This document shows positions 2,365 through 25,508 of a stretch of 31,003 bases of DNA, in pieces (position 1 is the first letter of the stretch; every line of letters starts with the position of its first letter). The notes below the pieces were generated by a model. It saw nothing but the letters and a program-made list of their open reading frames with translations, ran no database searches and had not been told where the DNA came from. The stretch covers positions 1 to 31,003 of IMG/VR virus record IMGVR_UViG_3300033182_000785. One strand, written 5' to 3'. The stretch is from a virus. Both the position numbers and the translations under genes were made by a program.

Positions 2365-2766
2365 ATGGCAGAACAAAGGGTATCCAGATCATTTAAAGAC
2401 ATCAGTTTATCCTTTGTTCCACATCCAGTGACAAAGGATCTTCAGGTATTAAAAAATGAGAATGCGATTCGTAGATCCGTAAGAAATATTGTTGAAACTA
2501 TTCCCACAGAAAGATTTTTTAATTCATTGTTGGGATCTGATGTGAGGGATAGTTTATTTGAATTTGTTGATTTTGGTACTGCTTCTGTCATTCAAAGTCA
2601 AATATTAGTTGCAATTGAAAACTTTGAACCGAGGGTTGATAATGTAGTCGTTGAAGTAGACCCTCAACCAGATGAAAATACATTTAATGTAACTGTCATT
2701 TTTGATATTATTGGACAAGAGTTTCCAACACAAGAGTATACGTTCCTATTAGAGGCAGCAAGATAA
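2365..2766 (+). CDS. gp25: Baseplate wedge subunit, T4 gp25 family
   Basis: The 133-aa length is almost identical to T4 gp25 (132 aa). The sequence shows the GPW/gp25 pattern: an N-terminal segment (RSFKDISLSFVPHPVTKDL, residues 8-26), then NENAIRRSVRNIVET (31-45) and PTERFF. The conserved core EPR is at residues 88-90, followed by a beta-rich end. gp25 is the lysozyme-like-fold wedge protein that sits on gp6/gp53 and primes sheath polymerisation. It is the first gene after the TATAAATA box at 2335 and ends one base before gp6, matching the gene pairing seen in marine T4-like phages. Confidence 0.93.
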   Translation: MAEQRVSRSFKDISLSFVPHPVTKDLQVLKNENAIRRSVRNIVETIPTERFFNSLLGSDVRDSLFEFVDFGTASVIQSQILVAIENFEPRVDNVVVEVDPQPDENTFNVTVIFDIIGQEFPTQEYTFLLEAAR

Positions 2767-2767
2767 G

Positions 2768-4663
2768 ATGCCCTTTACAAAATTCACGAATCTAGATTTT
2801 GACCAGATAAAGACTTCAATCAAAGATTATCTCCGTGCTAATTCAACATTTAGCGACTTTGATTTTGAGGGATCAAACTTTTCTGTTTTAATTGATACAC
2901 TGGCATATAACACTTATATTACTGCATTCAACAGTAATATGATTGTGAATGAATCGTTCTTAGATTCGGCAACTCTTCGTGAAAATGTAGTATCTCTCGC
3001 AAGAAATATTGGTTATGTGCCTCGTTCAAGAACGGCAGCAAGAGCAACGATTTCTTTTACGGTATCAACTAGTGAAGACACACCAACACTAACCCTCAGG
3101 AGGGGTCTAGTGTGTGTAGGAACGGCAAATAACACAACATATACCTTCTCAATTCCAGAAGATGTAACCGCTAATGTTGTTGATGGTGTTGCATCATTTA
3201 ATGAGGTGCAAGTTTATCAGGGAACTTATCTTACGAAGCAATTTGTCTATGATGGATCTCTGGACCAGAGATTTATTTTAAACAATTCCTTCATCGATAC
3301 ATCCACTCTTTCTGTTTATGTTAGAAAAACAAATGATAGTGGACTAGGAATTGAATATAGTCTGATTGACAATATTTTAAATACTACCGCAGATTCTAGA
3401 ATTTATATTCTACAGGAAGTTCAAGATGAAAAGTATGAAATAAAATTCGGTGATGGAATTATTGGCAAGAAGCTTGGAGACGCTGTTGGATCTGATGGAA
3501 CTGTAATTACGGCAAATTACATCATTACTGATGGGGAAGATGGAAATGGTGCTAGCGTTTTCACATTCTCTGGAAGTGTTATTACTGCAAATGATAAATT
3601 AATAAATCCAGGAACAATTACAATAACAACGAATCAAGCATCACAAAATGGATCGAATATAGAACCGATTGATTCTATAAAATATTATGCTCCAAGAGTA
3701 TATTCTGCCCAGAACAGAGCAGTAACTTCCAGAGACTATGAGGCAATCGTAAAGAGAATATATCCAGAAACAGAGTCTGTTGCCGTGATTGGTGGTGAAG
3801 AATTAGATCCACCAGAATATGGCAATGTGGTTCTGAGTATTAAACCAAAAAATGGAAGTTTTGTTTCTGATTTTAATAAGTCAAGAATTCTAAGTCAATT
3901 GAAACAGTATACCGTTTCAGGAATTAATCCAAAAATTATAGATCTCAAAATCCTTTATGTTGAGATAGACTCTGCTGTTTATTATAACTACTCCCAAGTT
4001 TCTAGTGTAGATTCATTAAAGACTAATGTGGTCAATAGTCTGACCAAGTATTCAGAATCATTAGATCTTAATAAGTTTGGTGGAAGATTCAAGTACAGTA
4101 AGGTTCTGAGTGTAATTGATACAACTGATACTGCAATCACTTCTAATATCACCAAAATTAGAATTAGAAGAGATTTGAAGGCATCTTTAAATCAATTCGC
4201 ACAGTATGAGTTGTGTTTTGGTAATAAATTTCATGTTAATCCTCAAGGAAGAAATATTAAGTCAACAGGATTTAAAATTGCGGGCGAGTCTTCCACAGTA
4301 TACTTAACAGACATCCCAACAACGATTGGAGCGAGAACAGGTGTTCTTTCAATAGTTAAGGATAGTGGTGTTATTGTTGCCAAAGACGTAGGAACAGTTG
4401 ATTATGTTAAGGGTGAGATTAAAATAGGAACGGTTAACATAACATCAACGGTAAAAGGAAATGGAATTATAGAGATTCAGGCTATACCAGAATCTAATGA
4501 TGTTGTTGGATTGAAAGACCTCTATTTGTCTTTTGATATTTCCAAAAGTGCGATAAATATGGTAAGGGATGTAATCGCTTCTGGTGATGAAATAACAGGA
4601 AATGTGTTTACTAGAAATTACTATACGTCAAGTTACTCAAACGGGAAATTAGCAAGAAACTAA
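2768..4663 (+). CDS. gp6: Baseplate wedge protein, T4 gp6 family
   Basis: 631 aa, close to T4 gp6 (660 aa). Recognisable features are the N-terminal helical core (FEGSNFSVLIDTLAYNTYIT, residues 33-52), NESFLDSATLRENVVSLARN (61-80) and GYVPRS. Later comes the segment with VTSRDYEAIVKRIYPETESV, which is typical of gp6/baseplate J-like proteins. gp6 forms the dimeric ring around the central hub that clamps the wedges and drives the sheath-contraction switch. The gene starts one base after the gp25 stop and ends one base before the giant gene, so the three genes are read as one unit. Nothing suggests truncation. Confidence 0.93.
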   Translation: MPFTKFTNLDFDQIKTSIKDYLRANSTFSDFDFEGSNFSVLIDTLAYNTYITAFNSNMIVNESFLDSATLRENVVSLARNIGYVPRSRTAARATISFTVSTSEDTPTLTLRRGLVCVGTANNTTYTFSIPEDVTANVVDGVASFNEVQVYQGTYLTKQFVYDGSLDQRFILNNSFIDTSTLSVYVRKTNDSGLGIEYSLIDNILNTTADSRIYILQEVQDEKYEIKFGDGIIGKKLGDAVGSDGTVITANYIITDGEDGNGASVFTFSGSVITANDKLINPGTITITTNQASQNGSNIEPIDSIKYYAPRVYSAQNRAVTSRDYEAIVKRIYPETESVAVIGGEELDPPEYGNVVLSIKPKNGSFVSDFNKSRILSQLKQYTVSGINPKIIDLKILYVEIDSAVYYNYSQVSSVDSLKTNVVNSLTKYSESLDLNKFGGRFKYSKVLSVIDTTDTAITSNITKIRIRRDLKASLNQFAQYELCFGNKFHVNPQGRNIKSTGFKIAGESSTVYLTDIPTTIGARTGVLSIVKDSGVIVAKDVGTVDYVKGEIKIGTVNITSTVKGNGIIEIQAIPESNDVVGLKDLYLSFDISKSAINMVRDVIASGDEITGNVFTRNYYTSSYSNGKLARN

Positions 4664-4664
4664 T

Positions 4665-7600
4665 ATGATACAGACTGGTTTTGAATCTAGAGTTAAGGTT
4701 CATCAGATTGTTGAGAGCCAACTTCCAAGTTTTATATTGGATGAAAATCCAAATGCTTCTGAGTTTTTAAAACAATATTACATATCTCAGGAATATCAAG
4801 GCGGACCAATAGATATTGCCGAAAATCTTGATCAATATCTAAAATTAGACAATCTTACACCAGAAGTAGTTGTTGATAGCACTACACTGTCTTCTAATAT
4901 TAGTTCGAGTGCGGATAGTATTACTGTTTCAAGTGTTAAAGGTTTTCCGAATAAGTATGGTCTTTTAAAGATTGGTGATGAAATTATTACCTATACTAAT
5001 ATAAGTGGAAGCACTTTTACTGGATGTATCCGTGGATTTAGTGGTATTACAAATTATCATCAGGATTTAAATCAAGAAGATCTTATATTTTCATCTTCAA
5101 CTGCATCAGAACATTCTTCTGGTGTCAGTGTTCAGAATCTAAGTTCTTTATTTTTAAAAGAATTCTATCAAAAGTTAAAATATTCTATTGCACCAGGTCT
5201 AGAAAAAACTGAATTTACGTCAAGTTTAGATGTAGGAAATTTCCTGAGTGAAGCAAATTCATTCTACAAGGCAAAGGGAACTGAAGAATCATTCAGAATT
5301 TTATTCAATATTCTTTATGGTGAGACGCCAAAGATTATAAATCTGGAAGATTATTTAATCAAACCATCTTCCGCAGAATATGTAAGGAATGAAGTCATTC
5401 TGATAGAAGTTATTTCTGGTTCTAATCCAAGAAATTTGGTTGGACAGACAGTAGTAAAATCTACCGATTCTTCTACTAGCGCCTCTCTTTCATCGATAGA
5501 ATCATTTAACAGAAACAATAAACAATACTATAAAGCATCTCTTTTTGTTGGAAATGATGAGTATCCAACAATTTTAGGCAATTTTACAATAACTCCAAAC
5601 ACGAAAACAACAGCAGATTCCTCAATATCATCAACAGTAGTTACTGTCGATTCTACCATAGGTTTCCCAGAAAGTGGAACATTGGTTTGTGGGAATAATA
5701 CAATAACATATACCAACAAGTCATTAAATCAATTCTTGGGTTGTAGTGGAATAGAAGAATCCATTGCAAAGAATTCGTTAGTTAGAAATAATGATACTTA
5801 TTTTGGATATGAAAATGGAGATACTTCCAAAAAGGTAGAGTTCAGAGTCCTTGGTGTTTTATCCAAATTCACCCCATCAACAGAAAATATTAATGTTTCT
5901 GAAAATGACATTATCAGCATTAAAAATGTTGGCGATCTAATCAAAAATCCCCAGAATAAAACACAAAAGGAGATTTTTGCAAACTCTTGGATTTACAATA
6001 CTGCTTCCAGATATAAAGTATTGAGTACTGGTTCTAATTATGTCTTAGCAAGTAATATTGATAGATCCAGTCTAAAAGTTGGTGATAGAGTAGAACTTCT
6101 TGTAAGAGATTCGGATACATTAGTAAACTCATCAGATGATCCAAGAATAACTCAGATTATTTCAGATAATACTGTAGAAATAGGCGGAGGATCTTTCTCA
6201 GTAGAATCCGGAAAAGAGTATGATCTGAGAAGAAAAATTAATACTGCAAGTAGTTCTGGCGTTTCCATTGAATATGGGAATGGTTTGATTACTTCTGATG
6301 TACAGAACTTATATTCTGATGGTGAAAAATATGCATATGTTGCGTCAAATTCATTACCATCATCCGAGATAGATAGTTCTTTTGATTATAGACATACTAT
6401 AACTGCGGATATCAAGACTGCAAATATATCTTCGGTAGACAATTTATTCAACAGAAATTCTGATGATGAATATGACACAATAGGTTTTACGGATGCTGCA
6501 CCATTTATAACAGGAGATAGAGTTTACTACCAACCAAATTCCGTAGCACTTGTAGGTCTTGAAACAGGAAGTTACTATGTGGAAGTTCTTCCTTCCGATA
6601 GTAAGAAAATCAAACTGTATTCTTCACCATCTTTTGTTGGATTAACTCCATTAAAGTTTAGAGTTCCAGAATCTGGATTAGACACACAAACATTCACTCT
6701 ATATTCTCAGAGGTTTGATGAGATTGGTGTGCAAAAGGTTCTTAAAAAGTTCCCACTTCAATCTGAAATAAAGAGTCCAGGGAAAGAAACAATTCCAGGA
6801 ACAACTGGAATGTTGATCAATGGTGTTGAAATTAGTAATTACAAATCACTTGATAAAGTTTACTATGGTCCTTTACAATCCATCGATGTTTTAAATGGTG
6901 GAGAGGGTTATGATGTTGTAAATCCTCCAAATATATCAATCTCTTCTGGTTCCTCAAATGCATTAGCACAACCAGTTGTTAGTGGATCTATTACTGAGGT
7001 TTATATTGATGCTCAGGATTATGACATCAATAAAATTCTTTCTGTGGATATTAGTGGAGGAAATGGATCAGGGGCTGTTTTAGAACCTATTGTTAGGAAG
7101 AGAGTAAGAGAAATAAGTTTTGATGGAAAAACTGTATCGAATGGTGGGAGTATAAGTACAACAGGAGATAGAATCTCTTTCTTAACAGACCATAATTTAA
7201 ACAATGGGGAAGAGGTAATATATAACTCAAATGGAAATTCACAGGTAGTAATTGGATCTGGATCTTCTACACTAATAAACAATTCCTCTTATTTTGTAAA
7301 GGTTGAGAATAATACCACCGTAAGTTTGTTTGAAACCTTGAATGATTATAATAACAACACTAATGTTATTGGGTTTTCCACAGGAACTCAGGGAATTCAT
7401 AAATTTACGACCGTAACCTCCAAAAACACAATCTCAGAAATAAAAGTAATTGATGGTGGAAGTGGATATACAAATAGGAAGTTAATTGTCAAGTCATCTG
7501 GAATCTCAACCACAAAAAATTCGATTATCTTCGAAAATCATGGATTTGAAACGGGAGAGTTGGTTACCTATGATTACGAAACATCTGCAATATCTGGAAT

Positions 7601-10600
7601 TTCATCGTCCAATCAATATTATGTCTTAAAAATTGATGATAACTCTTTTAGAATTTGTAACGCAGGAGTTGGTGGAACAAATACATCCTACTATAATAGA
7701 AAAAAATATGAAACATTCTCTGATACTGGTTCTGGATACCAGTATTTCAGTTACCCATCAATTTCAGTATCAATAAAATACAATCCTGTCGGATTTGGCA
7801 CCAATACTCAAACTTATCAGGAGATTGTAGCAACTCCTGTTGTAAAGGGAAGCATAGAGCAAGTATATCTCTATGAAAATGGCGCTGGATATGGATCCAC
7901 TGTACTAAATTATCAAGACAAACCTACTATAACCATAAAAAATGGAAAAAATGCATCATTAGTCCCCATCATTTCTAATGGTCAAATAAGATCAGTAGAT
8001 ATTCAGTATGGTGGTGAAGAATATTATTCAATTCCAGATTTAATTGTAAGTGGATCTGGAAGTGGCGCAAAATTAAGACCAGTAATTACTAATGGTAGAA
8101 TAACAGAAGTAAAAATAATTAGTGGTGGAGTAGGATACTCTGATACAACGACTTCTATTCTTGTAAAATCTTCTGGAATCAATGCACTATTGGATTCCAA
8201 AATTAGACAACTTACCGTAAATGAAAATCTTAGATTTGGGAATGAAATTTTACTAGAATCCAGTAATAAACTGAAATATACAGTTTCTGGATATTATTCT
8301 GATTTAAGAACAGTATTTGGAGAAACTGGTAGTATTTCTGGAATTATTGGATGGGCTTATGATGGAAATCCCATTTATGGACCATATGGATATTCTGATC
8401 CAAAGGATTCTACATCACAAGTAAAAAGAATCATTTCTGGTTACGTTTTAGATACATCATATTCGGATAGACCATCTGGATTCTCGGCAGGATTCTTTGT
8501 AGAAGATTATAAGTTTACTGGTTCGGGATCTACTCTGGACAAAAATAACGGCAGATTTGGAAAAACACCAGAATTTCCAAATGGAGTTTATGCCTACTTC
8601 GCCACTATTGATTCTTCTGGAGTTCCACAATTCCCATATTTCATTGGAAATGATTATAAATCAGAAACATTATCAGAAAATACAACTCTGACCCAATCAT
8701 TTGATTTTTCAACCTCCAGTCTACTTAGAAATACTTTCCCATATAAAGTTTCCGACAAAAATGCTGGGTATGATTTTATAACCGAAATAGATGATATTAC
8801 AAAGCAAAAAATAGTTGTAGAATCTGTTGCACAGGGATCTGTTGAAAAATTTGTTATTAAAAACTCTGGTTCCAACTATAAAGTTGACGATGTTCTAGAT
8901 TTTAGTGATACAGGAACTAATGGTGGTGGAGCAAATGCTGTTGTTTCATCAGTAGAAGGAAAAAATATCACTAATTTAGAAACCACTGTCAGCACCTACG
9001 AGGGATCTATCTTTACATGGGTTGATGGAGAGACTATAAAAGTTTCGATTCTTCCAAATCATACTTTGAGTGATAATGATTATGTAACTATTTCTGGACT
9101 ATCCACCGATCTTGTTAAATTGAACGGTGTACACAAAATAAATGTCACATCCAATAGTTCTGTTGCAATATCTTCTATATCGTCGGCAACAAGTATTGGC
9201 GGAACTGAAATATACGTTTCTAGAATTCCAGATAACATTTCAATAGGAAGTAGTATTGGAATAGGAACAGAAACTCTCAAAGTTTTGGGATTATATAGAA
9301 ATCAAAATATAATTCGTGTAGAAAGAGGATTGATAAATGTTTCGCACGATTCAAATTCAAATATAATATTTAATCCCGATTCATTTACGATTAAACAGAA
9401 TGTCAATTTCTTTGATTCTAAGTTAGATGACAAAGTTTTCTTCAATCCAATTGAAACTGTGGGATTTGGAACAACAGTAGGAACTTCTCATCTAGTAACT
9501 CTCGATTTTGGTGATCAAACTGGTATTCAGAGAGGAATTCCAACCAAATCAATTTACCTCGAAAATCATCCATTCAAAAATAATCAGCAAATTGTTTATA
9601 CTGCAGATGGATCCAATATTTTAGTTTCAACTGATGGCGTAACAACCATCAATTTACCCTCAACTGTTTTTGTCGTTAACAAGGGTGATAATTTAATTGG
9701 AATTAAAACTACTTTGAATTCAGAAGAAGTATTTTTCCATAGTGGTGGTAGTGATAGTGATTTATATTCCTTTGAGTCTGATTATAGTCAAATTACTGGA
9801 AAAGTTGAAAAGATAAAGTCTACAGTTTCAGTTTCAACTTCACATGGAATGTCTGTTGGTGATATAGTTGATTTGACAGTCAATTCTAATTTATCAGTTG
9901 GAATTGGCACATCTACTGCGGTAAAAATTTCTAGAAACCAAGATAGAATTTTAGTTAATCCAATAGGATTCAATTCTACTGGAATTAATACAACTACAAA
10001 TACCATAACATTAACAAATCATCAATTAGAAACAGGAGATAAAGTTTACTATTCTGCTGATCTAGTTGCTTCTGGATTGTCTACCGGCGATTTCTACATA
10101 TTGAAAGTAGATTCTAATAACATAAAACTTTCCGAAACATATTTTGATTCCGTAAAAGTACCACCAACGGTAGTAAGTATTGCAGGAACTGGTGGAAGTT
10201 CTCAATTTATATCTCAGATCAACCCCCAAATTTTATCAACGAAAAATAATAATTTAGTATTTGATTTAACAGACACATCTCTCTCAGGATATGATTTCAA
10301 AATTTATAGAGATCATAATTTTAAAGATGAGTTCGTTTCCACAGGTTCAACAACACCATTCAATTTATCAGGTGTCGGAACCGTTGGTGTATCAACAAAT
10401 GCTTCCTTGACTTTAAATTATAGTTCCAACTTACCTGAAAAATTATTCTATAACTTAGAAAAATCTGGATTTATAAGCACTGCTGATAGAGATGTAACTA
10501 ACTATTCGCAAATTTCATTTGTAGATAGTGTATATAATAGAACTTATAGTATTGTTGGTGTAGCCACAACAACCTTTGATTTGGTCCTTAATCGTGTTCC

Positions 10601-13600
10601 AGAAAAACTTTCATATACTCAGAGTGAATGTGATGACCTGAAATATACAACCTCATCAAAGACTGCATCGGGTGGAATTGATGGTTTGAAACTTATTTCT
10701 GGTGGATATGGATATAAAAAATTACCAGTTGTTGATAATATTACATCGACAAATGGTAAGGATGCATATCTACTGACAAGATCAAATTCTATTGGAAGTG
10801 TAAAGGAACTAAGAATTGTAAATGAAGAGTTTGAATATTCCTTCGATCCAACACTGGGTCCAACAGCGTTCATATCGCCAAACATTGTCACAATAAATTC
10901 GAATACATTAGAGTCTGTTTCAGTTCAAAATGGTGGTAGTGGTTATATACAATCACCAGACATTATTATTGTAAATCCCACATCTGGCGAAAAGATTGAT
11001 ACAGGAGTTTTGAAGGCTACTGTACTGGGAGAATCAATTCAGTCAGTAGAAATAGAAAACAATCCAAAAGGTCTTCCAGAAGATTCTGTCAGAATTCTTA
11101 CCATTAATAATACTAATGGAATAAGTATTCAAAGAGTTGAATCTAGTTCTACTGGAATATTCACTTGTGCTATAACTGTTCCTCCACTAGGATTTAGCAC
11201 CTTCCCATTTGCTGCTGGAGATAAAGTTTTTGTCGAAGGAGTAGAAAAGTTTGGATCTGGTGGATCTGGATTTAATTCGGAGGATTATGGATACAAATTC
11301 CTCGTTGTTGATAGTTACATTGAAGCATCTCCATATCACAAAGTAGTATTTGACCTTTCTAGCACCGCCAATAGTGGACTAACAACAAATACCGGTATTG
11401 CAAAAACAGCACTGGGTGGATTTGGTTCACTGATACATTTCAATGATTATCCAACATTTGAAGTAACGCAGAAGAGACTAGAATTTAATCTTGGAGAACA
11501 ATTAATTTCAAATGAAATAGAAAGAGATTTATTCATTGCTAGTTCAGATGGGACTAAATTAAAAGTTTCTGGAACATATGAATTATCCCTGGGCGAAAGA
11601 ATTACAGGCAAATCATCAGGGACAGTAGCAACTATCAATGAAATAGAAACTAATTCTGGATATTTTGGTGTTAATTATTCTATTCCTAAAAATTCTGGTT
11701 GGACTAATGAAATTGGAAAACTAAATTCCGATAGTCAAGTAATTCCTAATAACGATTATTATCAGAATCTTTCATACTCCATAAAGAGTAGCAAAGAATA
11801 TAAAGAAGTAGAAAAATCAATCAAACCTCTTCTTCATACTAGCGGACTGAAAGATTTTGCTGACACAGGTATAACTTCCACATCAGATGCATCAGATCTC
11901 CTTGGAATTGATGGAACAACTGTGATTCGTGATTTTATAGATGACCTTAGAGTTGATACGATTTATGATTTTGATTTTGTTGGAGACATTGATATTGATT
12001 CCAACGGAAATTCTAAGTATTTGAAATTGGCAAATACAAAGTTGACTGACTATACTGATAATGTTGGAAATGATGTGTTATCGATAGATGATATCAGTGG
12101 TCAATTCTCTTATTTTGAAGATAATCCAAGTGAACATCTAAATTTACTCAAATTAGATCCTTCCATTTCTTTTGAAAATTTCTTAGTTAGAATTACAAAT
12201 ACAGATAACAGCGAAGTTCAATTTACTGATGTGGTAGTATTGAATGATGGTAGTAATAGTTTCCTTGTAGAAAAAGGTGGAGTTGTTAACGCAGGATCCG
12301 GATCAACATCACATATACCAGACGAACAATATGGTGATTTGTCTATCGTAGTAGATGAATTTAACGATAGTTATCTGAGATTTGTCCCTGAGGATGCTTA
12401 TGATACAGATTACGATCTGAAAATCATAAGAAATAGATTTACAGATTCTATTTCTGGCATTGGTACAACTTCGATAGGATTTATCGATTTGGTAAGTTCT
12501 ACTGGTGTAACAACTTCGGGAGCAACTGGAACCATCGCATCATTTGATAATACGAAATTTGAATCGTTATATGCAAATGTGCAAATCATTGACGATGTTT
12601 CTAATGACATGAATTTTGTTGAACTGTATGTAACATCAGATGGATCAGACACCTATATTTCGGAATATTATTTTGACAGTGAAAGTGAAACATCGAGTTT
12701 CTCAAATAACTTCATAGGATCTTTTGGTGCCGATCTTTCTGGTGGAATTTTATCGTTAAATTGCACAAATACTTCCTCCAATAACAATACTTTTAGAGCA
12801 AGAGTTGTTGGATTTGGAACTACCACATCTGGAATTGGAACTTATAGGTTTAAATTGGATAGACAACCAGACGGATCGGAGAGATCTGTCATTTATAAGT
12901 CCGATTCCACATCAGGTGTTGGAACAACTACTATCGTTTCACTTGATAAAACATTATTCAATTCTGTAAAATCTCTTGTAGAAGTTAGTATTGGATCTAC
13001 AAAGTCTGTTCATCAAGTTATGATGATACAAGACAACAGTGATGTTTATTTACAACAATCATCTCTATTGAGTGTTAGCGGCATAACAACCTTTGACACT
13101 GCTATCGGTATGGGAACATTTGGTGGAAATAATTCAGGATCAAACTTGGAACTTAAGTTCTATCCAGATTCTGAATATTCTTCGGAAGATACTGTTATTT
13201 CGGCATTCAGTCAGTGTTTCTATAATGCTTTAGATACTCAGAATACTCCACCAGCATTAGAGTATGGAAATATTCAAGAGTCCACAGACTTGAAGTTCTA
13301 CAATTCAATCAATGGGGATAGAATTAACAGAACTAATTTCACGTTAACATCGGAAGGAACTCCAATTTTTGTTAAGGTAATTGATCCACAAGATACCAGT
13401 GCATTAATTGCAACAACAGGAACATTTAATGTCACAAACCACTTCTTCAAAGATGGTGAAGAATTAATTTACACACCAAAATCAACAATCATTGGTATTG
13501 CAACAACTGCGTTAACATATAGTAATGTTAGCAGTGGTGTAACTGACACTCTTCCTTCTACCGTTTTTGCTGTAGTATCTAATCAAAATTATGATCAATT

Positions 13601-16259
13601 CCAAATATCAACAACAAGAAGTGGAACTGCTGTAACATTTACAGACCTTGGTGGAGGAAATGCTCACCAATTTGAAATGGTGAAGAAAAATGAGAAGTCA
13701 ATTGTAGTTGTTGATAACCTCATTCAACACCCATTAATTTTTACAAATGTTTCTCATACATTATCTGGTTCAATTGGAACAGGAACCACGATATTTAATC
13801 TGAGTGGAATATCTTCAATAAATCCATCAGATATATTAAAGATTAGTGATGAGTATCTCCGAGTTAATAATGTAGGATTGGGAACATCGAGTGTTGGACC
13901 AATCACTAATAGTGGTTCATTCAATCTTGTTCAAACTGAAAGGAGTTTTATCGGAACCTCCGCTACTTCCTATGCATCATCGACACAAGTGGATGTTTAC
14001 AGAGGAGCATTCAATATTGTCGAAAATGAAATACATTTCGCAGACGCTCCAAGAGGAAATCCGCAGATAGATAAGACAAAGTTTAATTTAGATTATGAGA
14101 CTTCTACATTCAATGGAAGAGTTTTCCTAAGATCTGATTATTCAACAAACAAAATATATGATGATTTATCAAATGAGTTCAATGGTATTGGCAGAACATT
14201 TACCCTGCAAGTTGGTGGATCAAATACAACTGGTATCGGAACAACTGGTGGTAGTGGAATTGTATTGATTAATGGAATTTTCCAACAACCAACAACACCA
14301 AATAATCCAAGAGGTAATTTTGAAATTGTAGAGAATACTTCTGCTGGTATAAGCACAATAGTTTTCTCTGGAATTACAGTTCCTAATAGTGATCCATTAG
14401 AATATATCACATCTGATAGTGATGTGAATCAAAATGAAACTCCAAGAGGTGGAATTATCGTTTCCTTGGGATCTACTCCTGGACTTGGATTTGCACCTCT
14501 TGTAGGAGCATCTGTAACCGCTATAGTGGGTGCGGGAGGATCTATTGCAGGTATTAGCACGGGAATTCCTGGAGGATCATTTGGATCTGGTTACAATGGA
14601 CTAACTTCTATTGGAGTTACTGTTTATGAAGATGATCACTCCGGAACAGCAGCAACTATTACTGCTTCCGTTGGTGCTGGTGGAACACTTTCATTCAATA
14701 TTGTTGGTGGAGGAACAGGATATACAAATCCATCTATATCAGTATCATCTCCATCATATGAAAATCTTTCGGCCATCGGAGTTTCTAGAATTGGAATTGG
14801 AGCAACAACTGTAACTGGTATTGGATTATCAATCAGTTTGAGTGTTGGAAATGTAAGTAATGTTGGAATTGCATCAACACACTTTGGTGTAACGGATTAT
14901 AGAATTTCTAGAAATGGATATTCTTTCCGAAGAGGTGATGTAATCAAACCTGTTGGTCTTGTTACCGACGCCAGACTGTCATCTCCCATAAACGAATTTG
15001 AATTAACAGTGTTAGAAACATATTCCGATAAGTTTGCAGCTTGGGAGTTTGGCGAATTAGATTTTATTGATTCGATTTCTGATCTTCAAGATGGTGTAAA
15101 AACAACCTTCCCACTGTTCTACAACGGAGAACTTATTAGTTTTGAAAAGGAACCTGATTCTAGAATTAACTTGCAGAATTGCTTACTAATCTTTATTAAT
15201 GGAGTTCTTCAGGAACCAGGGGTTAATTATACATTTGGTGGTGGAACATCCTTTATATTCACCACTGCACCAAAACCAGAAGATAAGGTTTCAATTTACT
15301 TCTATAAAGGTTCTTCTGCTGATATCAGTGTAGTCACCAATATTAATGAAACTATAAAAAAAGGTGATATTGTTCAGGTTCAAAAATTCAATGATATCCC
15401 GAACATTCTATCTCAAAATAAGAGAACTATTACGGACTTATCATTCTCGGATAAATTTGAAACGGATTTATATTCTGGTCCAGGAATATCAACTGTTTAC
15501 AGACCATTAAGTTGGACAAAACAAAAAGTTGACAAGGAAATCAATGGAGAAATTGTTTCTAAGGCAAGAGATTCCATCGAACCATTGATTTTCCCAACCG
15601 TAAATATCATTGGCGATGTATTTACGACTGATACACAAATATTTGTTGATAGCGTGGAACTGTTCAAATATGAAGATCCAGATTTATCTTCCTTTGACGG
15701 TTTGGTTGTCGATGGAATATCAACAACTGCCAGTGGATCAGTTGAACTTGTGAAGAATTTCTCTACTATTCAGGGAGATTTTGGATCAATTGTTGGCATT
15801 GCATCAACAACCTCACCAAATGTTGCAATAGAATTTACTCTGGATTCTCTGATTGGTTCAGATCTTCAAGTTGGATATCCAATTTATATTTTCGACACAT
15901 TAGTTGGTTCTGGAATTACATCTATTAATTCTTCCGATAGCGAAGTTATTGGTATTGGAACAACACATATTGATAATGTTTATTATGTAGAATCACTTGA
16001 TAATGCTACTGGTATTGTAACATGTCGCGTTCATTCTGCCTCAAATCTTGTTGGAATAGACACCACCGGAACTACAAATTACCCAGTTGGCAGATATTCA
16101 TGGGGTAGATTGTCCAATACGTCTGGACTAGTTAGATCTTCTAATCCAGTTTCAATAGGTGTAACTGGAAAAGTAGTGTCCGGACTTTCAACATATCCAA
16201 TCATTCAGAGAAGAAATGTTGGAATAAGGTCTACTGGCGCTCTCCCCAAACTATTATAA
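4665..16259 (+). CDS. Giant mosaic virion protein (3,864 aa) in the gp7 position
   Basis: One uninterrupted frame of 11.6 kb between gp6 and gp8, where T4 has gp7 (1,032 aa). I see no convincing gp7 sequence match, so function is inferred from position: a peripheral baseplate or fibre protein. Residues 1-280 look non-repetitive and may anchor the protein (IGDEIITY near 103-110). The rest is mostly beta modules: GGxGY repeats (residues 744, 930, 1071, 1115, 1153, 2012, 2089, 3348), at least seven H-x-aromatic-x2-G-x2-V-x-Y modules (843, 959, 1466, 1635, 1786, 2926 and near 1727), one GERITGKSSG element (about 2309), a degenerate YHYH-type domain (1226-1335), and near the C terminus the element INGVLQEPGVNYTFGGGTSF. 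Arg is almost always AGA. No signal peptide or transmembrane helix is evident. Could also be a distal fibre rather than a wedge protein. Confidence 0.85.
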   Translation: MIQTGFESRVKVHQIVESQLPSFILDENPNASEFLKQYYISQEYQGGPIDIAENLDQYLKLDNLTPEVVVDSTTLSSNISSSADSITVSSVKGFPNKYGLLKIGDEIITYTNISGSTFTGCIRGFSGITNYHQDLNQEDLIFSSSTASEHSSGVSVQNLSSLFLKEFYQKLKYSIAPGLEKTEFTSSLDVGNFLSEANSFYKAKGTEESFRILFNILYGETPKIINLEDYLIKPSSAEYVRNEVILIEVISGSNPRNLVGQTVVKSTDSSTSASLSSIESFNRNNKQYYKASLFVGNDEYPTILGNFTITPNTKTTADSSISSTVVTVDSTIGFPESGTLVCGNNTITYTNKSLNQFLGCSGIEESIAKNSLVRNNDTYFGYENGDTSKKVEFRVLGVLSKFTPSTENINVSENDIISIKNVGDLIKNPQNKTQKEIFANSWIYNTASRYKVLSTGSNYVLASNIDRSSLKVGDRVELLVRDSDTLVNSSDDPRITQIISDNTVEIGGGSFSVESGKEYDLRRKINTASSSGVSIEYGNGLITSDVQNLYSDGEKYAYVASNSLPSSEIDSSFDYRHTITADIKTANISSVDNLFNRNSDDEYDTIGFTDAAPFITGDRVYYQPNSVALVGLETGSYYVEVLPSDSKKIKLYSSPSFVGLTPLKFRVPESGLDTQTFTLYSQRFDEIGVQKVLKKFPLQSEIKSPGKETIPGTTGMLINGVEISNYKSLDKVYYGPLQSIDVLNGGEGYDVVNPPNISISSGSSNALAQPVVSGSITEVYIDAQDYDINKILSVDISGGNGSGAVLEPIVRKRVREISFDGKTVSNGGSISTTGDRISFLTDHNLNNGEEVIYNSNGNSQVVIGSGSSTLINNSSYFVKVENNTTVSLFETLNDYNNNTNVIGFSTGTQGIHKFTTVTSKNTISEIKVIDGGSGYTNRKLIVKSSGISTTKNSIIFENHGFETGELVTYDYETSAISGISSSNQYYVLKIDDNSFRICNAGVGGTNTSYYNRKKYETFSDTGSGYQYFSYPSISVSIKYNPVGFGTNTQTYQEIVATPVVKGSIEQVYLYENGAGYGSTVLNYQDKPTITIKNGKNASLVPIISNGQIRSVDIQYGGEEYYSIPDLIVSGSGSGAKLRPVITNGRITEVKIISGGVGYSDTTTSILVKSSGINALLDSKIRQLTVNENLRFGNEILLESSNKLKYTVSGYYSDLRTVFGETGSISGIIGWAYDGNPIYGPYGYSDPKDSTSQVKRIISGYVLDTSYSDRPSGFSAGFFVEDYKFTGSGSTLDKNNGRFGKTPEFPNGVYAYFATIDSSGVPQFPYFIGNDYKSETLSENTTLTQSFDFSTSSLLRNTFPYKVSDKNAGYDFITEIDDITKQKIVVESVAQGSVEKFVIKNSGSNYKVDDVLDFSDTGTNGGGANAVVSSVEGKNITNLETTVSTYEGSIFTWVDGETIKVSILPNHTLSDNDYVTISGLSTDLVKLNGVHKINVTSNSSVAISSISSATSIGGTEIYVSRIPDNISIGSSIGIGTETLKVLGLYRNQNIIRVERGLINVSHDSNSNIIFNPDSFTIKQNVNFFDSKLDDKVFFNPIETVGFGTTVGTSHLVTLDFGDQTGIQRGIPTKSIYLENHPFKNNQQIVYTADGSNILVSTDGVTTINLPSTVFVVNKGDNLIGIKTTLNSEEVFFHSGGSDSDLYSFESDYSQITGKVEKIKSTVSVSTSHGMSVGDIVDLTVNSNLSVGIGTSTAVKISRNQDRILVNPIGFNSTGINTTTNTITLTNHQLETGDKVYYSADLVASGLSTGDFYILKVDSNNIKLSETYFDSVKVPPTVVSIAGTGGSSQFISQINPQILSTKNNNLVFDLTDTSLSGYDFKIYRDHNFKDEFVSTGSTTPFNLSGVGTVGVSTNASLTLNYSSNLPEKLFYNLEKSGFISTADRDVTNYSQISFVDSVYNRTYSIVGVATTTFDLVLNRVPEKLSYTQSECDDLKYTTSSKTASGGIDGLKLISGGYGYKKLPVVDNITSTNGKDAYLLTRSNSIGSVKELRIVNEEFEYSFDPTLGPTAFISPNIVTINSNTLESVSVQNGGSGYIQSPDIIIVNPTSGEKIDTGVLKATVLGESIQSVEIENNPKGLPEDSVRILTINNTNGISIQRVESSSTGIFTCAITVPPLGFSTFPFAAGDKVFVEGVEKFGSGGSGFNSEDYGYKFLVVDSYIEASPYHKVVFDLSSTANSGLTTNTGIAKTALGGFGSLIHFNDYPTFEVTQKRLEFNLGEQLISNEIERDLFIASSDGTKLKVSGTYELSLGERITGKSSGTVATINEIETNSGYFGVNYSIPKNSGWTNEIGKLNSDSQVIPNNDYYQNLSYSIKSSKEYKEVEKSIKPLLHTSGLKDFADTGITSTSDASDLLGIDGTTVIRDFIDDLRVDTIYDFDFVGDIDIDSNGNSKYLKLANTKLTDYTDNVGNDVLSIDDISGQFSYFEDNPSEHLNLLKLDPSISFENFLVRITNTDNSEVQFTDVVVLNDGSNSFLVEKGGVVNAGSGSTSHIPDEQYGDLSIVVDEFNDSYLRFVPEDAYDTDYDLKIIRNRFTDSISGIGTTSIGFIDLVSSTGVTTSGATGTIASFDNTKFESLYANVQIIDDVSNDMNFVELYVTSDGSDTYISEYYFDSESETSSFSNNFIGSFGADLSGGILSLNCTNTSSNNNTFRARVVGFGTTTSGIGTYRFKLDRQPDGSERSVIYKSDSTSGVGTTTIVSLDKTLFNSVKSLVEVSIGSTKSVHQVMMIQDNSDVYLQQSSLLSVSGITTFDTAIGMGTFGGNNSGSNLELKFYPDSEYSSEDTVISAFSQCFYNALDTQNTPPALEYGNIQESTDLKFYNSINGDRINRTNFTLTSEGTPIFVKVIDPQDTSALIATTGTFNVTNHFFKDGEELIYTPKSTIIGIATTALTYSNVSSGVTDTLPSTVFAVVSNQNYDQFQISTTRSGTAVTFTDLGGGNAHQFEMVKKNEKSIVVVDNLIQHPLIFTNVSHTLSGSIGTGTTIFNLSGISSINPSDILKISDEYLRVNNVGLGTSSVGPITNSGSFNLVQTERSFIGTSATSYASSTQVDVYRGAFNIVENEIHFADAPRGNPQIDKTKFNLDYETSTFNGRVFLRSDYSTNKIYDDLSNEFNGIGRTFTLQVGGSNTTGIGTTGGSGIVLINGIFQQPTTPNNPRGNFEIVENTSAGISTIVFSGITVPNSDPLEYITSDSDVNQNETPRGGIIVSLGSTPGLGFAPLVGASVTAIVGAGGSIAGISTGIPGGSFGSGYNGLTSIGVTVYEDDHSGTAATITASVGAGGTLSFNIVGGGTGYTNPSISVSSPSYENLSAIGVSRIGIGATTVTGIGLSISLSVGNVSNVGIASTHFGVTDYRISRNGYSFRRGDVIKPVGLVTDARLSSPINEFELTVLETYSDKFAAWEFGELDFIDSISDLQDGVKTTFPLFYNGELISFEKEPDSRINLQNCLLIFINGVLQEPGVNYTFGGGTSFIFTTAPKPEDKVSIYFYKGSSADISVVTNINETIKKGDIVQVQKFNDIPNILSQNKRTITDLSFSDKFETDLYSGPGISTVYRPLSWTKQKVDKEINGEIVSKARDSIEPLIFPTVNIIGDVFTTDTQIFVDSVELFKYEDPDLSSFDGLVVDGISTTASGSVELVKNFSTIQGDFGSIVGIASTTSPNVAIEFTLDSLIGSDLQVGYPIYIFDTLVGSGITSINSSDSEVIGIGTTHIDNVYYVESLDNATGIVTCRVHSASNLVGIDTTGTTNYPVGRYSWGRLSNTSGLVRSSNPVSIGVTGKVVSGLSTYPIIQRRNVGIRSTGALPKLL
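6894..8180 (+). repeat. GGxGY beta-repeat cluster A in the giant protein
   Basis: Residues 744-1172 hold NGGEGY (6894), DGGSGY (7452), ENGAGY (7875), YGGEEYY (8007) and SGGVGY (8121). Most are followed by a strand of the type P-x-I-x-hydrophobic-S and then by a Gly/Ala-rich turn (GSGSGAKLRPVI). The last three have a roughly 40-residue period (1071, 1115, 1153). Two H-x-[FL]-x2-G-E-x-V-x-Y modules are interleaved (7191 and 7539). The repeats are degenerate at DNA level, so they are old rather than recent tandem copies. Confidence 0.7.
8340..8670 (+). other. Degenerate YHYH-type domain inside the giant protein
   Basis: Residues 1226-1335 begin GIIGWAYDGNPIYGPYGY and continue to NGRFGKTPEFPNGVYAYFAT and FPYFIG. 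This order and spacing match the YHYH protein family as I know it (G-x-A-x-D-G-x-P-I-Y-G-P, then NG-x-F-x-x-TPE-x-P-x-G-x-Y, then FPY-x-IG). The place where the family name motif is expected reads YAYF (residues 1309-1312, nt 8589-8600), so both histidines are absent. The family's role is unknown, so no activity is claimed. Confidence 0.7.
10698..10980 (+). repeat. GGxGY beta-repeat pair B in the giant protein
   Basis: Residues 2012 (SGGYGY) and 2089 (NGGSGY) each follow a hydrophobic strand (LKLI or VSVQ) and precede a segment with Pro and alternating hydrophobics (KLPVVDNI; SPDIIIVNP). Same module type as cluster A. Confidence 0.6.
14512..14775 (+). repeat. Gly-rich GxGY repeat cluster C in the giant protein
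   Basis: Contains VGAGGSIAGISTGIPGGSFG, then GSGYNGLTSIGVTVYE (from 14583), a second VGAGGTLSFNIV, and GGGTGYTNPSISVSSP (from 14706). The two halves look like tandem copies about 41 residues apart. This is the closest in style to the repeats inserted in gp14 (GYT-x-P-x-[VI]-x-[VI]-S). Confidence 0.65.
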
Positions 16260-16262
16260 ATA
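16255..16262 (+). promoter_or_regulatory. T4-type late promoter TATAAATA ahead of gp8
   Basis: Exact TATAAATA overlapping the TAA stop of the giant gene (16257-16259) and 20 bases before the gp8 start at 16282. It extends to TATAAATATCTA, identical over 12 bases with the promoter at 25135. It allows gp8 and the following genes to be transcribed without first reading the 11.6-kb gene. Confidence 0.72.
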
Positions 16263-16281
16263 TCTAAAAAACTATGTTAAT

Positions 16282-17811
16282 ATGGCTGCTGTCGTAACAG
16301 ATCAATTTAGAATACTGAATGCGAGTAACTTTATAGATTCTGTATTGGATGCTAATAATTCATACTATGTTTTCTTAGGTCTACCAAATTCTTCCGCTGT
16401 TGGATTTGGTAGAACTTCTAATTGGAGCACTGCTACTAGTGGACCTCCAAGTCCAACTGATAATTTTGAGTATCTAACACATTATAGAGATACTGGAATA
16501 TTTGGAAAAAGAGTTACTAGTACAAATATTAGAAGAGTAATAAGAAAAGTTCAGTGGACATCAAACACTGCCTATGACATGTATAGGCATGATTATAGTT
16601 CCTCAAATACAACTCCAAATTCTGGAACCAGTAGATTATATGATTCAAACTATTATGTAATTAACAGTGATTATAGAGTATATGTTTGTATTGATAATGG
16701 TTCTTCTGGATCTAATCTGAAAGGTGGCAGATCGAAATTTGAACCAACCTCAACAGATTTACAACCTTTTAGTGCTGGATCTGATGGGTATAGGTGGAAA
16801 TACTTATTCTCTATTTCTCCAAGTGATATAATTAAATTCGATTCTACGGAATATATTGTTCTTCCTAACGACTGGGCAACCTCTTCTGATTCTCAAATTC
16901 AAGCGGTCAGAGAAGCAGGAGATTCTGACGTTAACAATAACCAGATTAAAAAAGTTTATATTAAAAATGCTGGATTAGGATACACAGCATCCACATATGA
17001 CATTTTGGGCGATGGCACTGGTGGAAAAGTTGCTATAACGGTTGATAGTAATGGTGCTATTACCTCCACAAATGTCACAACTGGTGGAAAGGGATATACA
17101 TTTGGTATTGTTGATTTGGAGAGAACAGGAACTATATCAAGTGCAGCGAATTTGATTCCCATCATTCCACCATCAAAAGGTCATGGATATGATATTTACA
17201 CTGAGTTAGGTGCTGATAGAGTTTTAGTATATGCAAGATTTGACGATTCAACGAAAGATTTCCCTGTAGATACAAAGTTTTCTCAGGTTGGGATAGTTAA
17301 GAATCCAAAAGAGTATTCATCTGGTGTTACTACATTCACTGGTTCAAACTATTCTTCTTTATATGCATTGAAACTAAATTCTTCATATACAGGAACACCT
17401 GCAGTGGGAGAAAGAGTTAGCCAAGAACAATCTTCTACAGAAATTGCAAAAGGATGGGTTGCTTCGTATGATAGTGATACAAAAGTATTAAAGTATTTTA
17501 GAGACAGATCTTTGTTCTTGACTGATGGAATCAATCAGGAAGACAGAACAACTATTGGAGTAGATTCGAAAGTTGTTGATTTTAATAATACTGATAGTGT
17601 TACATTTACCACTGCAACTAGCACAACGGTATCATCTGGGTTTACTGGAAGTTCGGAAAACGGAATCAATTTAGGTGTCAATTTTACAGGTGGACTTTCA
17701 AATCCAGAGATAAATAAAAAGACGGGGGATATTATCTACATCGACAATAGACCCGAAGTTGGAAGAAATCTCAGACAAAAAGAAGACGTTAAAATTATTC
17801 TGGAATTCTAA
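16282..17811 (+). CDS. gp8: Baseplate wedge subunit, T4 gp8 family
   Basis: Matches T4 gp8 in several landmarks in order: the N-terminal VTDQFRI segment, YYVFLG, FGRTSNWS, PPSPTDN, then YRVYVCIDN, DGYRWKYLFSISP, EYIVLPNDW, FSQVGIVKNP, and the C-terminal TGDIIYIDNRP followed by EDVKIILEF (T4: GEMIYMENRPP ... EEINILFTF). gp8 is the dimeric wedge protein that binds gp7 and gp10. T4 gp8 has 334 aa; this one has 509. Part of the extra length is a pair of GxGY repeats at residues 229-274, and part is near the C terminus (TTATSTTVSSGFTGSSENG). The gap to the next gene is only 5 bases, so the two are co-transcribed. Confidence 0.88.
   Translation: MAAVVTDQFRILNASNFIDSVLDANNSYYVFLGLPNSSAVGFGRTSNWSTATSGPPSPTDNFEYLTHYRDTGIFGKRVTSTNIRRVIRKVQWTSNTAYDMYRHDYSSSNTTPNSGTSRLYDSNYYVINSDYRVYVCIDNGSSGSNLKGGRSKFEPTSTDLQPFSAGSDGYRWKYLFSISPSDIIKFDSTEYIVLPNDWATSSDSQIQAVREAGDSDVNNNQIKKVYIKNAGLGYTASTYDILGDGTGGKVAITVDSNGAITSTNVTTGGKGYTFGIVDLERTGTISSAANLIPIIPPSKGHGYDIYTELGADRVLVYARFDDSTKDFPVDTKFSQVGIVKNPKEYSSGVTTFTGSNYSSLYALKLNSSYTGTPAVGERVSQEQSSTEIAKGWVASYDSDTKVLKYFRDRSLFLTDGINQEDRTTIGVDSKVVDFNNTDSVTFTTATSTTVSSGFTGSSENGINLGVNFTGGLSNPEINKKTGDIIYIDNRPEVGRNLRQKEDVKIILEF
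16966..17118 (+). repeat. GxGY repeat pair inserted in gp8
   Basis: NAGLGYT (residues 229-235) and GGKGYT (268-273) flank GDGTGGKVAITVDSNGAITS. The pattern is the same as in the giant protein and gp14. It falls between regions that align with T4 gp8, so it reads as an insertion into the ancestral fold. Confidence 0.65.
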
Positions 17812-17816
17812 AAAAG

Positions 17817-20800
17817 ATGGCACAAAAAACAGACTTAAATATCAACCCATACTATGATGATTTTGATTCGGGTAAAAACTTTTATAAAGTCTTATTTAAG
17901 CCAGGATTTCCAGTTCAGGCACGAGAGTTAACTACATTACAATCAATATTACAAAATCAAATTGAATCTTTTGGCAGTTATACTTTTAAAGAAGGAACTG
18001 TTGTAATTCCAGGAAACATTGCCTATGATGGGCAGTTTTATGCGGTTAAATTAAATACAATAGAATTTGGAATAGATGTATCCCTATATTTGAATAGTTT
18101 TATAGGGAAAAAAATTACCGGTCAAACATCTGGTACTACTGCAACTGTACAATTTGTTGCTCTTCCAAATAATTCTAATATCGAAAATCCAACAATCTAT
18201 GTAAAATATGTAGATTCTAATAATAATTTTACTTTCGATCAATTCGAAGATGGAGAAGCATTATTTGCCAGTGAAAACGTAACATATGGAAATACGACAA
18301 TTAATGCTGGAACTCCATTCGCATCTCTAATTAGTTTAAACGCAACTTCCATTGGATCGGCAGCATCTATTGGAGAAGGAGTATATTTTATTAGAGGATA
18401 TTTTGCAAACGTATCCAAACAAACAATTATACTCGATAATTATGCCAATACACCATCTTATAGAGTTGGTTTGACAATCAGTGAATTACTTGTTAATGCT
18501 AAGGATGATTCTTCTTTGTATGATAATGCAAGAGGATTTACAAATTATGCTGCACCAGGTGCAGATAGATTACAAATCAATTTAACACTATCAAAGAAAT
18601 TACTCACAGATACTAACGACACAGATTTCGTAGAACTTCTCAGAGTAGAAGATGGTAAGATAAAGAAGATTGAAAATAAAACTCAACTTAACAGACTTGG
18701 TGATTATATTGCAGAAAGAACATATGAGGAGTCTGGTCATTATGCATTAGACAATTTTAAAGTATCATTACACAATTCACTTAATGATAAATTGGGTAAT
18801 GATGGATTATTCTTTGATAATCAGTCCACAGATCAACTCAATTCACCTTCCGATAATTTAATGTGCGTTAAAGTTTCTCCCGGAGAAGCTTATGTTGGTG
18901 GATATAATGTGGAGAAAGTTTCCAATACAATTATTGACGTAGAAAAACCAAGAGATACTGCAACAATATCTGCTGCAAATATTCCCTTCGAAATGGGGAA
19001 CCTTCTTAGAGTCAATAATGTAAGTGGAGCACCAAAACAAAAGGAATCCATTGATCTTTATGATCAATTTGCTGGTGGTGGAACACAGATTGGTGATGCC
19101 AGAGTCTATACTTTTAATTTAACTGGTTCTTCGTATCAAGATGGATCTACAAATTGGGATCTCTATCTTTATGACGTTCAGACTTACACATCTCTCACCT
19201 TAAATACACCAGTAGCACCTCTGGGATTAATAACTTCATCTTATATTAAAGGTAAGAGTAGTGGTGCTAGTGGATATGCAGTTTCCTCTGGTTCTGGAAG
19301 TACTGTAAGTATAAGACAAACTTCAGGAACATTTTCTGTTGGTGAACAATTAATTATTAATGGCGTCGATGCTTCCGCAACAGTGGCATCCGTTATTTCA
19401 TATGGAACAAGAGATATTAAATCAGTTTCTCAATCTGGTGTTTCTGGATTCCCATCATTTACGGCAGATTCTCTTTTAGATTCTATCAATCTTCCCAATG
19501 GTGTTGTTGGTGGAACCATAAGCGGAGGAAATACTCTTGTAAGTCCAGGAAAAGTATTTACAGGCATTAAAGTTGGTGATATTATTAGATATCAAACTGC
19601 TTCTGGCGATGAAACTTTCAATAGAGTTACGGCGAATAATACAACATCCTTAACACTTGCAGCATCTACAACTGTATCTGGTGTGCATGTAGGTACAGTT
19701 TCTAATGGAACATATTCTCAGATTAAACTTGGCGTTCCAGCATTGAGAAATCAAGACAAAGGATACCTCTATGCAGAACTTCCAGATTCCAATATCGAAT
19801 CAGTAAATCTTTCTAGTTCATCGTTAAAAATATCAGAACAAATTACTGGAGAATCAACAGATCCTAGCGGTGTTTTAACGTTTGATTTATCTTCAACTGG
19901 AATTACTGCTGGAGTCACAAGTGCATTTTTTGATCCTTTTGATGAAGAAAGGTATTCTGTACATTACAATGGAGGTGGAATCGGAACAGTAACTTCCGAC
20001 GCATTCTCCATCAGCAATAATACTGTAACTATCAATGGATTATTGGCAAGTCAAACCAATAATGTTGTAGTAAATGCCTCTCTGACAAAGAATGGTATTC
20101 AGAGCAAAATAAAAGAATACACAAGAAGTTCAACACTTGATGTCATCTATTCAAGAGATCAACAGTCTGGTGTTGGTGTCAATACTTCCGTCAATGATGG
20201 TCTCACATACAACACAAACTATGGATTGAGAGTCCAAGACGAAGAGATTTCTTTAAATTATCCAGATGTAGTAAAAGTTCTCGCTATCCACGAATCCTTA
20301 GATGAAAATGCACCAACACTGGATCAAATTCAATTCTTCGATACATCAGTAGTAAGTAATGCAATCATTGGGGAAAATATTACAAGTTCTTCAAGTAATA
20401 CAGTAGCAAGAGTAGTTGGTAAACCATCTTCCCTCGTTTTATCTGTCGTATATCTAAATCAAGACAGATTTATTGCTGGCGAATCAGTAACATTGGAAGA
20501 ATCCAACAACACTGCTTCATTACAGTCTGTAACCAGAGGTTCTTATAAGGATGTTACTTCATCCTTTACCCTAGATAAGGGTCAGAGGGATCAATACTAC
20601 GACTATTCCAGAATTGTTAGGAGTTCAAATACACCAGTTCCTTCTAGAAGATTGAAGATTGTATTTGACCATTATACTGTTCCTGCTTCCGATAGTGGTG
20701 ATGTCTACACCATTTTGAGTTACGATAAAGACAGATTTGCAGAAGATATTCCATACATTGGAGAAAGAAGAGTAAGAGCTTCTGATACTCTTGATTTTAG

Positions 20801-25169: not shown

Positions 25170-25508
25170 ATGGCGGTATTTGTATCAAATATAGTAATTG
25201 AGCAGGGATTTGATTTTGATACTACTTTTCAGTTGGAAGATACTTTAACGGGAAGTCTTTTAGATTTGTCAAATTATACTATTGACGCCCAACTTAGAAA
25301 AACATATACTAGTTCTACTTCTGTATCTTTTTCATCTACGATTACATCAGCAGCAGAAGGAAAAGTTCAAATATCATTGGGCACAACTGCTACTTCAAAC
25401 TTGAAGTACGGAAGATATGTGTATGATATAAAACTAACTAGTCCTCTTGGTGTTGTGACAAAACCAGTGGAAGGATCTGCACTTGTTAGAGCGGGGGTAA
25501 CCAGGTAA
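25170..25508 (+). CDS. Small beta-rich virion-type protein, 112 aa
   Basis: First gene after the late promoter. Opens MAVFVSNIVIEQGFDFDTTF, continues with LLDLSNYTIDAQLRKTYTSS and SAAEGKVQISLGTTATSNL, and ends YDIKLTSPLGVVTKPVEGSA. The alternating hydrophobic pattern predicts an immunoglobulin- or BppU-N-terminus-like beta sandwich of the kind that joins fibres to baseplates (resemblance from memory, weak). It overlaps the fibre-like gene by one base (TAATG at 25506-25510), suggesting that the two products work together. It is unrelated to any T4 protein I can name. Confidence 0.72.
   Translation: MAVFVSNIVIEQGFDFDTTFQLEDTLTGSLLDLSNYTIDAQLRKTYTSSTSVSFSSTITSAAEGKVQISLGTTATSNLKYGRYVYDIKLTSPLGVVTKPVEGSALVRAGVTR

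Follow-up and report, generated by a model that had tools for sequence, protein, structure and literature searches.

Which protein takes the place of the baseplate wedge protein gp7 in T4-like phages of the ocean? The question is raised by a frame of 3,864 codons at 4665-16259 (plus strand) of the virus record IMGVR_UViG_3300033182_000785, which was analysed from position 1 to 31,003; this whole stretch of 31,003 bases is called the window. T4 gp7 is the baseplate wedge initiator and makes the (gp6)2-gp7 wedge core. The frame in the window starts with ATG, is unbroken, and covers 37% of the sequence, and the chance probability for a frame of this length at 34% G+C is about 1e-134. The initial annotation described an intact single frame of more than one third of the window, and this is borne out here and by conservation of the frame in relatives. 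It also described a protein that replaces T4 gp7, whereas the two halves of the gp7 core can each be recognised in the giant protein. The giant, from a T4-like marine virus of cyanobacteria, is very probably the orthologue of T4 gp7, with about 2,000 residues inserted into its core and about 1,450 added after it. Databases already contain a widespread family of such giants, many of them labelled gp7 or wedge subunit; the present contribution is evidence of homology and a description of the split core.

Homology of the N-terminal part to gp7

A profile of the N-terminal half of the core was made from amino acids (aa) 1-440 and 51 relatives, and was searched against all PDB sequences. Two matches were obtained, both named gp7 (9f4a with an expectation value (E) of 4e-4, and 5hx2/5iv5 with E 1e-3). 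Against seven T4-type gp7 proteins, the N-half family gives E 2.4e-9 and a score of 81.8, matching T4 gp7 residues 702-830. The decoys in this comparison score at most 22.1 (40 column-shuffled), 19.1 (reversed family), and at most 18.5 (seven other T4 baseplate proteins). The earlier view that the giant has no obvious T4 counterpart beyond its position is thus not upheld. The proposed homology to gp7 is borne by the sequence evidence, and the structural evidence is supportive only.

The core N-half begins with the segment aa 6-45 (LPSFILDENPNASEFLKQYY; 4680-4799, plus strand), in which helices are predicted at residues 6-19, 22-27, and 29-44. This segment is kept through to the compact relatives, and resembles T4 gp7 645-671 in sequence, a likeness that is not significant by itself. 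A small beta barrel lies within the core at aa 71-145 (4875-5099, plus strand). It belongs to repeat type C, which covers aa 71-122 and recurs at aa 313-361 (self-repeat E about 1e-7), and by VIA-align its structure matches domains of the tail tip protein of phage Chi and of the JBD30 baseplate protein, with Z 10.9 and 10.5. The core N-half continues with the helices of the FYKAKGT motif (aa 155-225) and a beta domain like domain V of gp7 (aa 237-310), together at 5127-5594 (plus strand). The first 310 residues or so would comprise the helical core of gp7 and domain V, interrupted by a single small beta barrel.

The N-terminal 640 residues of T4 gp7 have no detectable counterpart in the whole-family profile comparison. 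The scores of the whole family against T4 gp7 1-640, gp9, gp10, gp11, and gp12 are at chance level. A T4-type N-terminal part appears not to be required for the role, since this part is much reduced also in minimal homologues such as XM1 gp17.

The second motif and the split core

The second conserved segment, YYQNLSYSIKSSKEYKEVEKSIKPLLHTSGLKDF, starts at aa 2365. It provides the motif of the core C-half (aa 2365-2400, 'YYQNLSYSIKS...LLHTSGLKDF'; 11757-11864, plus strand). The profile of the second-motif family matches T4 gp7 865-892 with E 4e-4 and a score of 34.4, compared with at most 20.4 for shuffled decoys. This match lies just downstream of the first match on T4 gp7, and the two are collinear. 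The giants are connected to the compact relatives at this motif with E 3e-8 for Melnitz and E 4e-9 for S-CREM2, where it lies at the extreme C-terminus. When the second-motif profile alone was searched against PDB with hmmsearch, gp7 was not found.

For both core segments the best-matching Pfam family is PF23786 (Baseplate_wedge), in 27 of 52 members for the N-half and 11 of 20 for the second motif. On the PF23786 model the N-half reaches to about position 221 and about 228-282 are taken up by the second motif, so that the two segments are adjacent. As a sequence model, PF23786 supports the split core independently.

T4 gp7 (PDB 5iv5/5hx2) is like the window protein in having the core and domain V (702-830) followed by the motif at 865-892. 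It is unlike the window protein in its short spacing and its additional 640-residue N-terminal part. The KGT motif and the second motif are 125 residues apart in T4, 438 in Melnitz, 1,610 in S-CAM4, 2,164 in the window protein, and 2,857 in P-SSM4. The tail after the second motif comprises about 150 residues in T4 and about 1,450-1,460 in the window protein, and varies widely among relatives. In the window protein, the insertion between the core halves occupies about aa 311-2364 (5595-11756, plus strand), and the C-terminal extension, downstream of the last core motif, about aa 2420-3864 (11922-16256, plus strand). The last recognisable core segment would come only at aa 2365-2400, and the residues between and after the core halves would be added beta-repeat, YHYH, and related domains. 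No description of a split-core layout was found in the open literature searched, which does not prove that none exists.

Structure models and points against the split core

The initial annotation had proposed structure prediction with a search against gp7. The AlphaFold2 model of aa 1-440 ranks gp7 chains first in Foldseek, where 9f4a_A0 and 5iv5_BJ (gp7 by entry and length) are the only PDB chains below 1e-3. VIA-align superposes model residues 1-404 on T4 gp7 637-848 in collinear order, with a root-mean-square deviation of 24 Å, hence not as one rigid body. Model residues 237-402 are superposed on 9f4a_A0 763-846 with Z 8.1, at 2.7 Å over 83 residues. A small beta barrel at aa 310-377, common to F1-ATPases and phage proteins, dominates the VIA-align rows and was not taken as an indication of function. 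The fold of one whole compact relative was too poor for use (mean predicted local distance difference test score (pLDDT) of 49.6).

Several results weigh against a split gp7 core. The model of aa 1-440 is weak, with a mean pLDDT of 67 and a predicted template modelling score of 0.37. Its template modelling scores to gp7 are low at 0.12-0.13, and its VIA-align Z values to gp7 (8.1-8.5) are close to background. At the second motif, the giants alone give E 0.1-0.4 against T4 gp7, which is not significant, and the link to T4 needs the compact relatives as a bridge. The window protein's own match to PF23786 (aa 187-221) is weak, at E 0.008 and under the Pfam cut-off. The inserts have no fold assigned from sequence: neither the profile of aa 2440-2909 nor that of the C-terminal 519 residues has a significant match in PDB. 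According to the initial annotation, terminal segments that fold without similarity to baseplate proteins, together with absence from purified virions, would count against its proposal; the N-terminus does resemble gp7, and the C-terminal 519 residues have no PDB match by profile. The whole 3,864-aa protein, searched against PDB with phmmer, gave no match.

Gene neighbourhood and VrlC

The giant frame comes directly after gp6 and directly before gp8, in the order gp25-gp6-X-gp8, and the T4 gp7 gene likewise lies between gp6 and gp8. The upstream partner gp25, the sheath initiator (2365-2766, plus strand), matches PHROG 261 (baseplate wedge subunit) with E 2.5e-52. The wedge protein gp6 (2768-4663, plus strand) matches T4 gp6 by profile with E 9.9e-30 and contains Pfam Gp6-like_1st, and the wedge protein gp8 (16282-17811, plus strand) matches T4 gp8 by profile with E 1.6e-10 and contains Pfam Phage-Gp8. 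The two profiles match no other tested T4 baseplate protein. The gp7 slot named in the initial annotation is confirmed in this way by T4 profile matches of the neighbours, and gp6 is the expected direct partner of the giant gp7.

Downstream of gp8 lies a VrlC-like protein of 2,367 aa (17817-24920, plus strand), which matches PHROG 358 and DUF4815. According to a published report, cyano- and pelagimyophages lack T4 gp7, and VrlC appears to take its place (PMC7029224). This report, together with the missing counterpart of the T4 gp7 N-terminal 640 residues, would favour an unrelated adhesin or fibre in the gp7 position, with gp7 itself lost or replaced by VrlC. Such a replacement is very improbable, as it is contradicted by the profile evidence: the gp7 matches of the giant are significant, specific, and collinear. 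By profile, the VrlC-like protein has no match to T4 gp7 (E 0.31), nor to T4 gp5, gp6, gp8, gp9, gp10, gp11, gp12, or gp53. As judged from profiles, the statement that gp7 is absent is contradicted for cyanophages. In the pelagiphage HTVC008M, gp055 (4983-8033 of the HTVC008M stretch analysed) is a homologue of the Melnitz protein amid wedge genes. It is annotated 'head closure Hc2' and matches the compact gp7 family; the label probably stems from shared repeats.

The family of giants and compact relatives

The PHROG 2885 profile 'baseplate wedge subunit' covers aa 2-3311 of the 3,864 residues with E 0. A tblastn search with the first 2,778 residues found 466 phage records, nearly all from Synechococcus and Prochlorococcus phages, and 93 of them covered at least 80% of the query. 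Many of the records carry the label 'baseplate wedge initiator' or 'gp7', and others 'structural' or 'hypothetical' protein. The giants of S-SKS1, S-SRM01, and P-SSM2 are 41-54% identical to the window protein over its first 2,778 aa. The cyanophage giants (PHROG 2885) have the same core motifs and the same place after gp6, and are homologous to the window protein over most of its length. They differ from it in total length, insert make-up, and C-terminal extension.

The family members comprise 896 aa in Melnitz, 1,016 in HTVC008M gp055, 1,937 in S-CREM2 gp122, 3,494 in S-CAM4, 3,895 in S-SRM01, 4,446 in P-HM1, 5,195 in P-SSM2, 6,603 in S-TIM4 ORF_101, and 7,312 in P-SSM4. The window protein is therefore mid-sized, and the suggestion that it would be among the largest of its kind is overturned by P-SSM4, S-TIM4, and P-SSM2 at the same locus. 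The order gp25-gp6-X-gp8 is present by annotation in P-SSM2, S-SRM01, P-HM1, S-CAM4, S-CREM2, and HTVC008M. In S-TIM4, X and gp8 are separated by gp9 and ORF_103, and X is followed in Melnitz-1 by several genes, including one with the label wedge subunit. The mutated genes given in the text of a paper on S-TIM4 evolution do not include ORF_101, and no weight was placed on this. For P-SSM4 and S-SKS1 the stretch or its annotation leaves the gene order unsettled.

The proteins of Melnitz, HTVC008M (gp055), and S-CREM2 (gp122) contain both core halves, with A-type repeats or a YHYH domain between them, and their insertion is far smaller than that of the window protein. S-CREM2 gp122, which carries a YHYH domain, begins with the N-half and closes with the second motif, and has almost no C-terminal extension. 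The S-CREM2 N-terminus as query found only two further loci, and the distant alignment of seven members was too divergent for scanning.

S-SKS1 (9001-21387) is the closest cultured relative, and no intact giant frame is annotated in it. The first open frame in S-SKS1 is 710 codons long, the match is broken into four pieces, and the annotation gives parts as separate wedge subunits. The broken frame may be a sequencing error or a truly split gene.

Cleavage after translation would yield two products, a wedge protein that ends near aa 2,400 and a free C-terminal part. The whole core lies within the first 2,400 residues, the S-CREM2 protein ends shortly past the second motif, and the S-SKS1 region is read in several frames, all of which agree with cleavage. 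However, every fully read relative keeps a single frame, and the S-SKS1 split may itself be erroneous. Cleavage is improbable on this evidence.

Repeats and domains of the added regions

Internal repeats were found by self-comparison of the giant, and motif counts were set against 300 shuffles. The repeat motif counts are above those of all shuffles; GGxGY, for example, occurs 6 times, compared with a shuffle mean of 0.1. In addition to type C, three types were found. Type A ('GGxGY') is at aa 732-811, 912-954, 1061-1181, and 2071-2116. Type B ('H....GD.V') is at about aa 605-653, 838-894, 942-998, 1630-1686, 1769-1824, 2917-2999, and 3041-3077. The longer type D is at aa 2617-2700 (12513-12764) and aa 2749-2832 (12909-13160), both on the plus strand. 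The YHYH domain occupies aa 1214-1318 (8304-8618, plus strand; Pfam PF14240, E 1.4e-26), and an FCCH-like repeat at aa 1465-1507 is a Pfam match under the cut-off. Types A, B, and C, the FCCH-like repeat, and the YHYH domain are present in the insertion, and type D in the C-terminal extension. The mosaic of beta-repeat families with a YHYH domain given in the initial annotation is thereby recovered.

Several tail proteins seem to have gained similar repeats. Giant-like repeats are present in the neck protein gp14 (474 aa, 27258-28682), whose residues 228-377 are 28% identical over about 160 aa to about aa 1030-1180 in relatives of the giant. The window gp8 comprises 509 aa compared with 334 aa in T4, and has a weak match to the giant's repeats, as in gp14.

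Conservation along the chain and attachment

Identity to six relatives is uniform over the length of the giant, and a hypervariable distal part, as expected of a receptor-binding tail fibre, is absent. The five relatives that were read end to end keep a single frame of 3,866-4,127 aa. In one related contig, gp7 is 74% identical, compared with 92% for gp25, 83% for gp6, 82% for gp8, and 83% for VrlC. The even identity favours a structural outer-baseplate role of the inserts over direct receptor binding.

The initial annotation combined scaffold and receptor-binding fibre in one chain. The wedge part of this proposal is supported by sequence and weakly by structure, and the fibre part is not. 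If the inserted or C-terminal beta domains did recognise the host, one chain with a gp7 core would serve as both scaffold and fibre. A precedent for core additions that serve attachment is given by phage XM1, in which gp17, a gp7 orthologue of 242 residues, anchors the tail spikes via a loop and the C-terminus (PMC10457771). In the published account XM1 gp17 is described as the gp7 partner in a wedge core of the (gp6)2-gp7 type, at minimal size (PMC10457771). Receptor binding by the giant is nevertheless unlikely, as even identity and steady gene length do not resemble a receptor-binding tip, and the tip-like pattern is found elsewhere. The open reading frame (ORF) at 25508-26416 (302 aa) has a conserved N-terminal part of about 66-80 residues, and its remainder diverges among close relatives. 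The adjoining ORF 25170-25508 (112 aa) matches a tail-fibre-assembly family. By sequence, ORF 25508-26416 may encode a short tail fibre or a receptor-binding protein.

A related protein is known to be part of the virion: mass spectrometry of virions identified 91 unique peptides of S-CREM2 gp122, which cover 27% of this protein (PMC10665884).

Two further genes lie upstream of gp25. ORF 1403-2071 matches a phage ferredoxin family. The family matched by ORF 342-1100 is uncharacterised, and there is also a weak match to glycosyltransferases.

Proposed role and significance

As a gp7, the giant would most likely be present in six copies per virion, and these would use the split core to nucleate the wedge together with gp6, gp25, and gp8. 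The domains that loop out of the core or trail behind it may form the outer baseplate, where they would act as scaffold and anchor, and a surface to which peripheral proteins, such as the VrlC-like protein and fibres, attach. These added domains may stand in for the N-terminal 640 residues of T4 gp7 and for the peripheral T4 proteins not recognised in the window.

Sequence and weak structural evidence suggests that abundant ocean phages keep gp7, against the published statement of its absence. A homology basis now underlies a database label whose records state none. For structural biologists, the split-core layout marks the boundary between the core and the added domains. The family is also a natural series of sizes (896, 1,937, 3,864, and 7,312 aa) in which the role of the extra domains can be studied. 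It is possible, as a tentative view, that marine T4-like phages enlarge the baseplate by adding thousands of residues in one loop of gp7 and at its end. The outer baseplate, which comprises several proteins in T4, would then be covalently part of six giant gp7 chains, with about 900 to 7,300 aa depending on the lineage.
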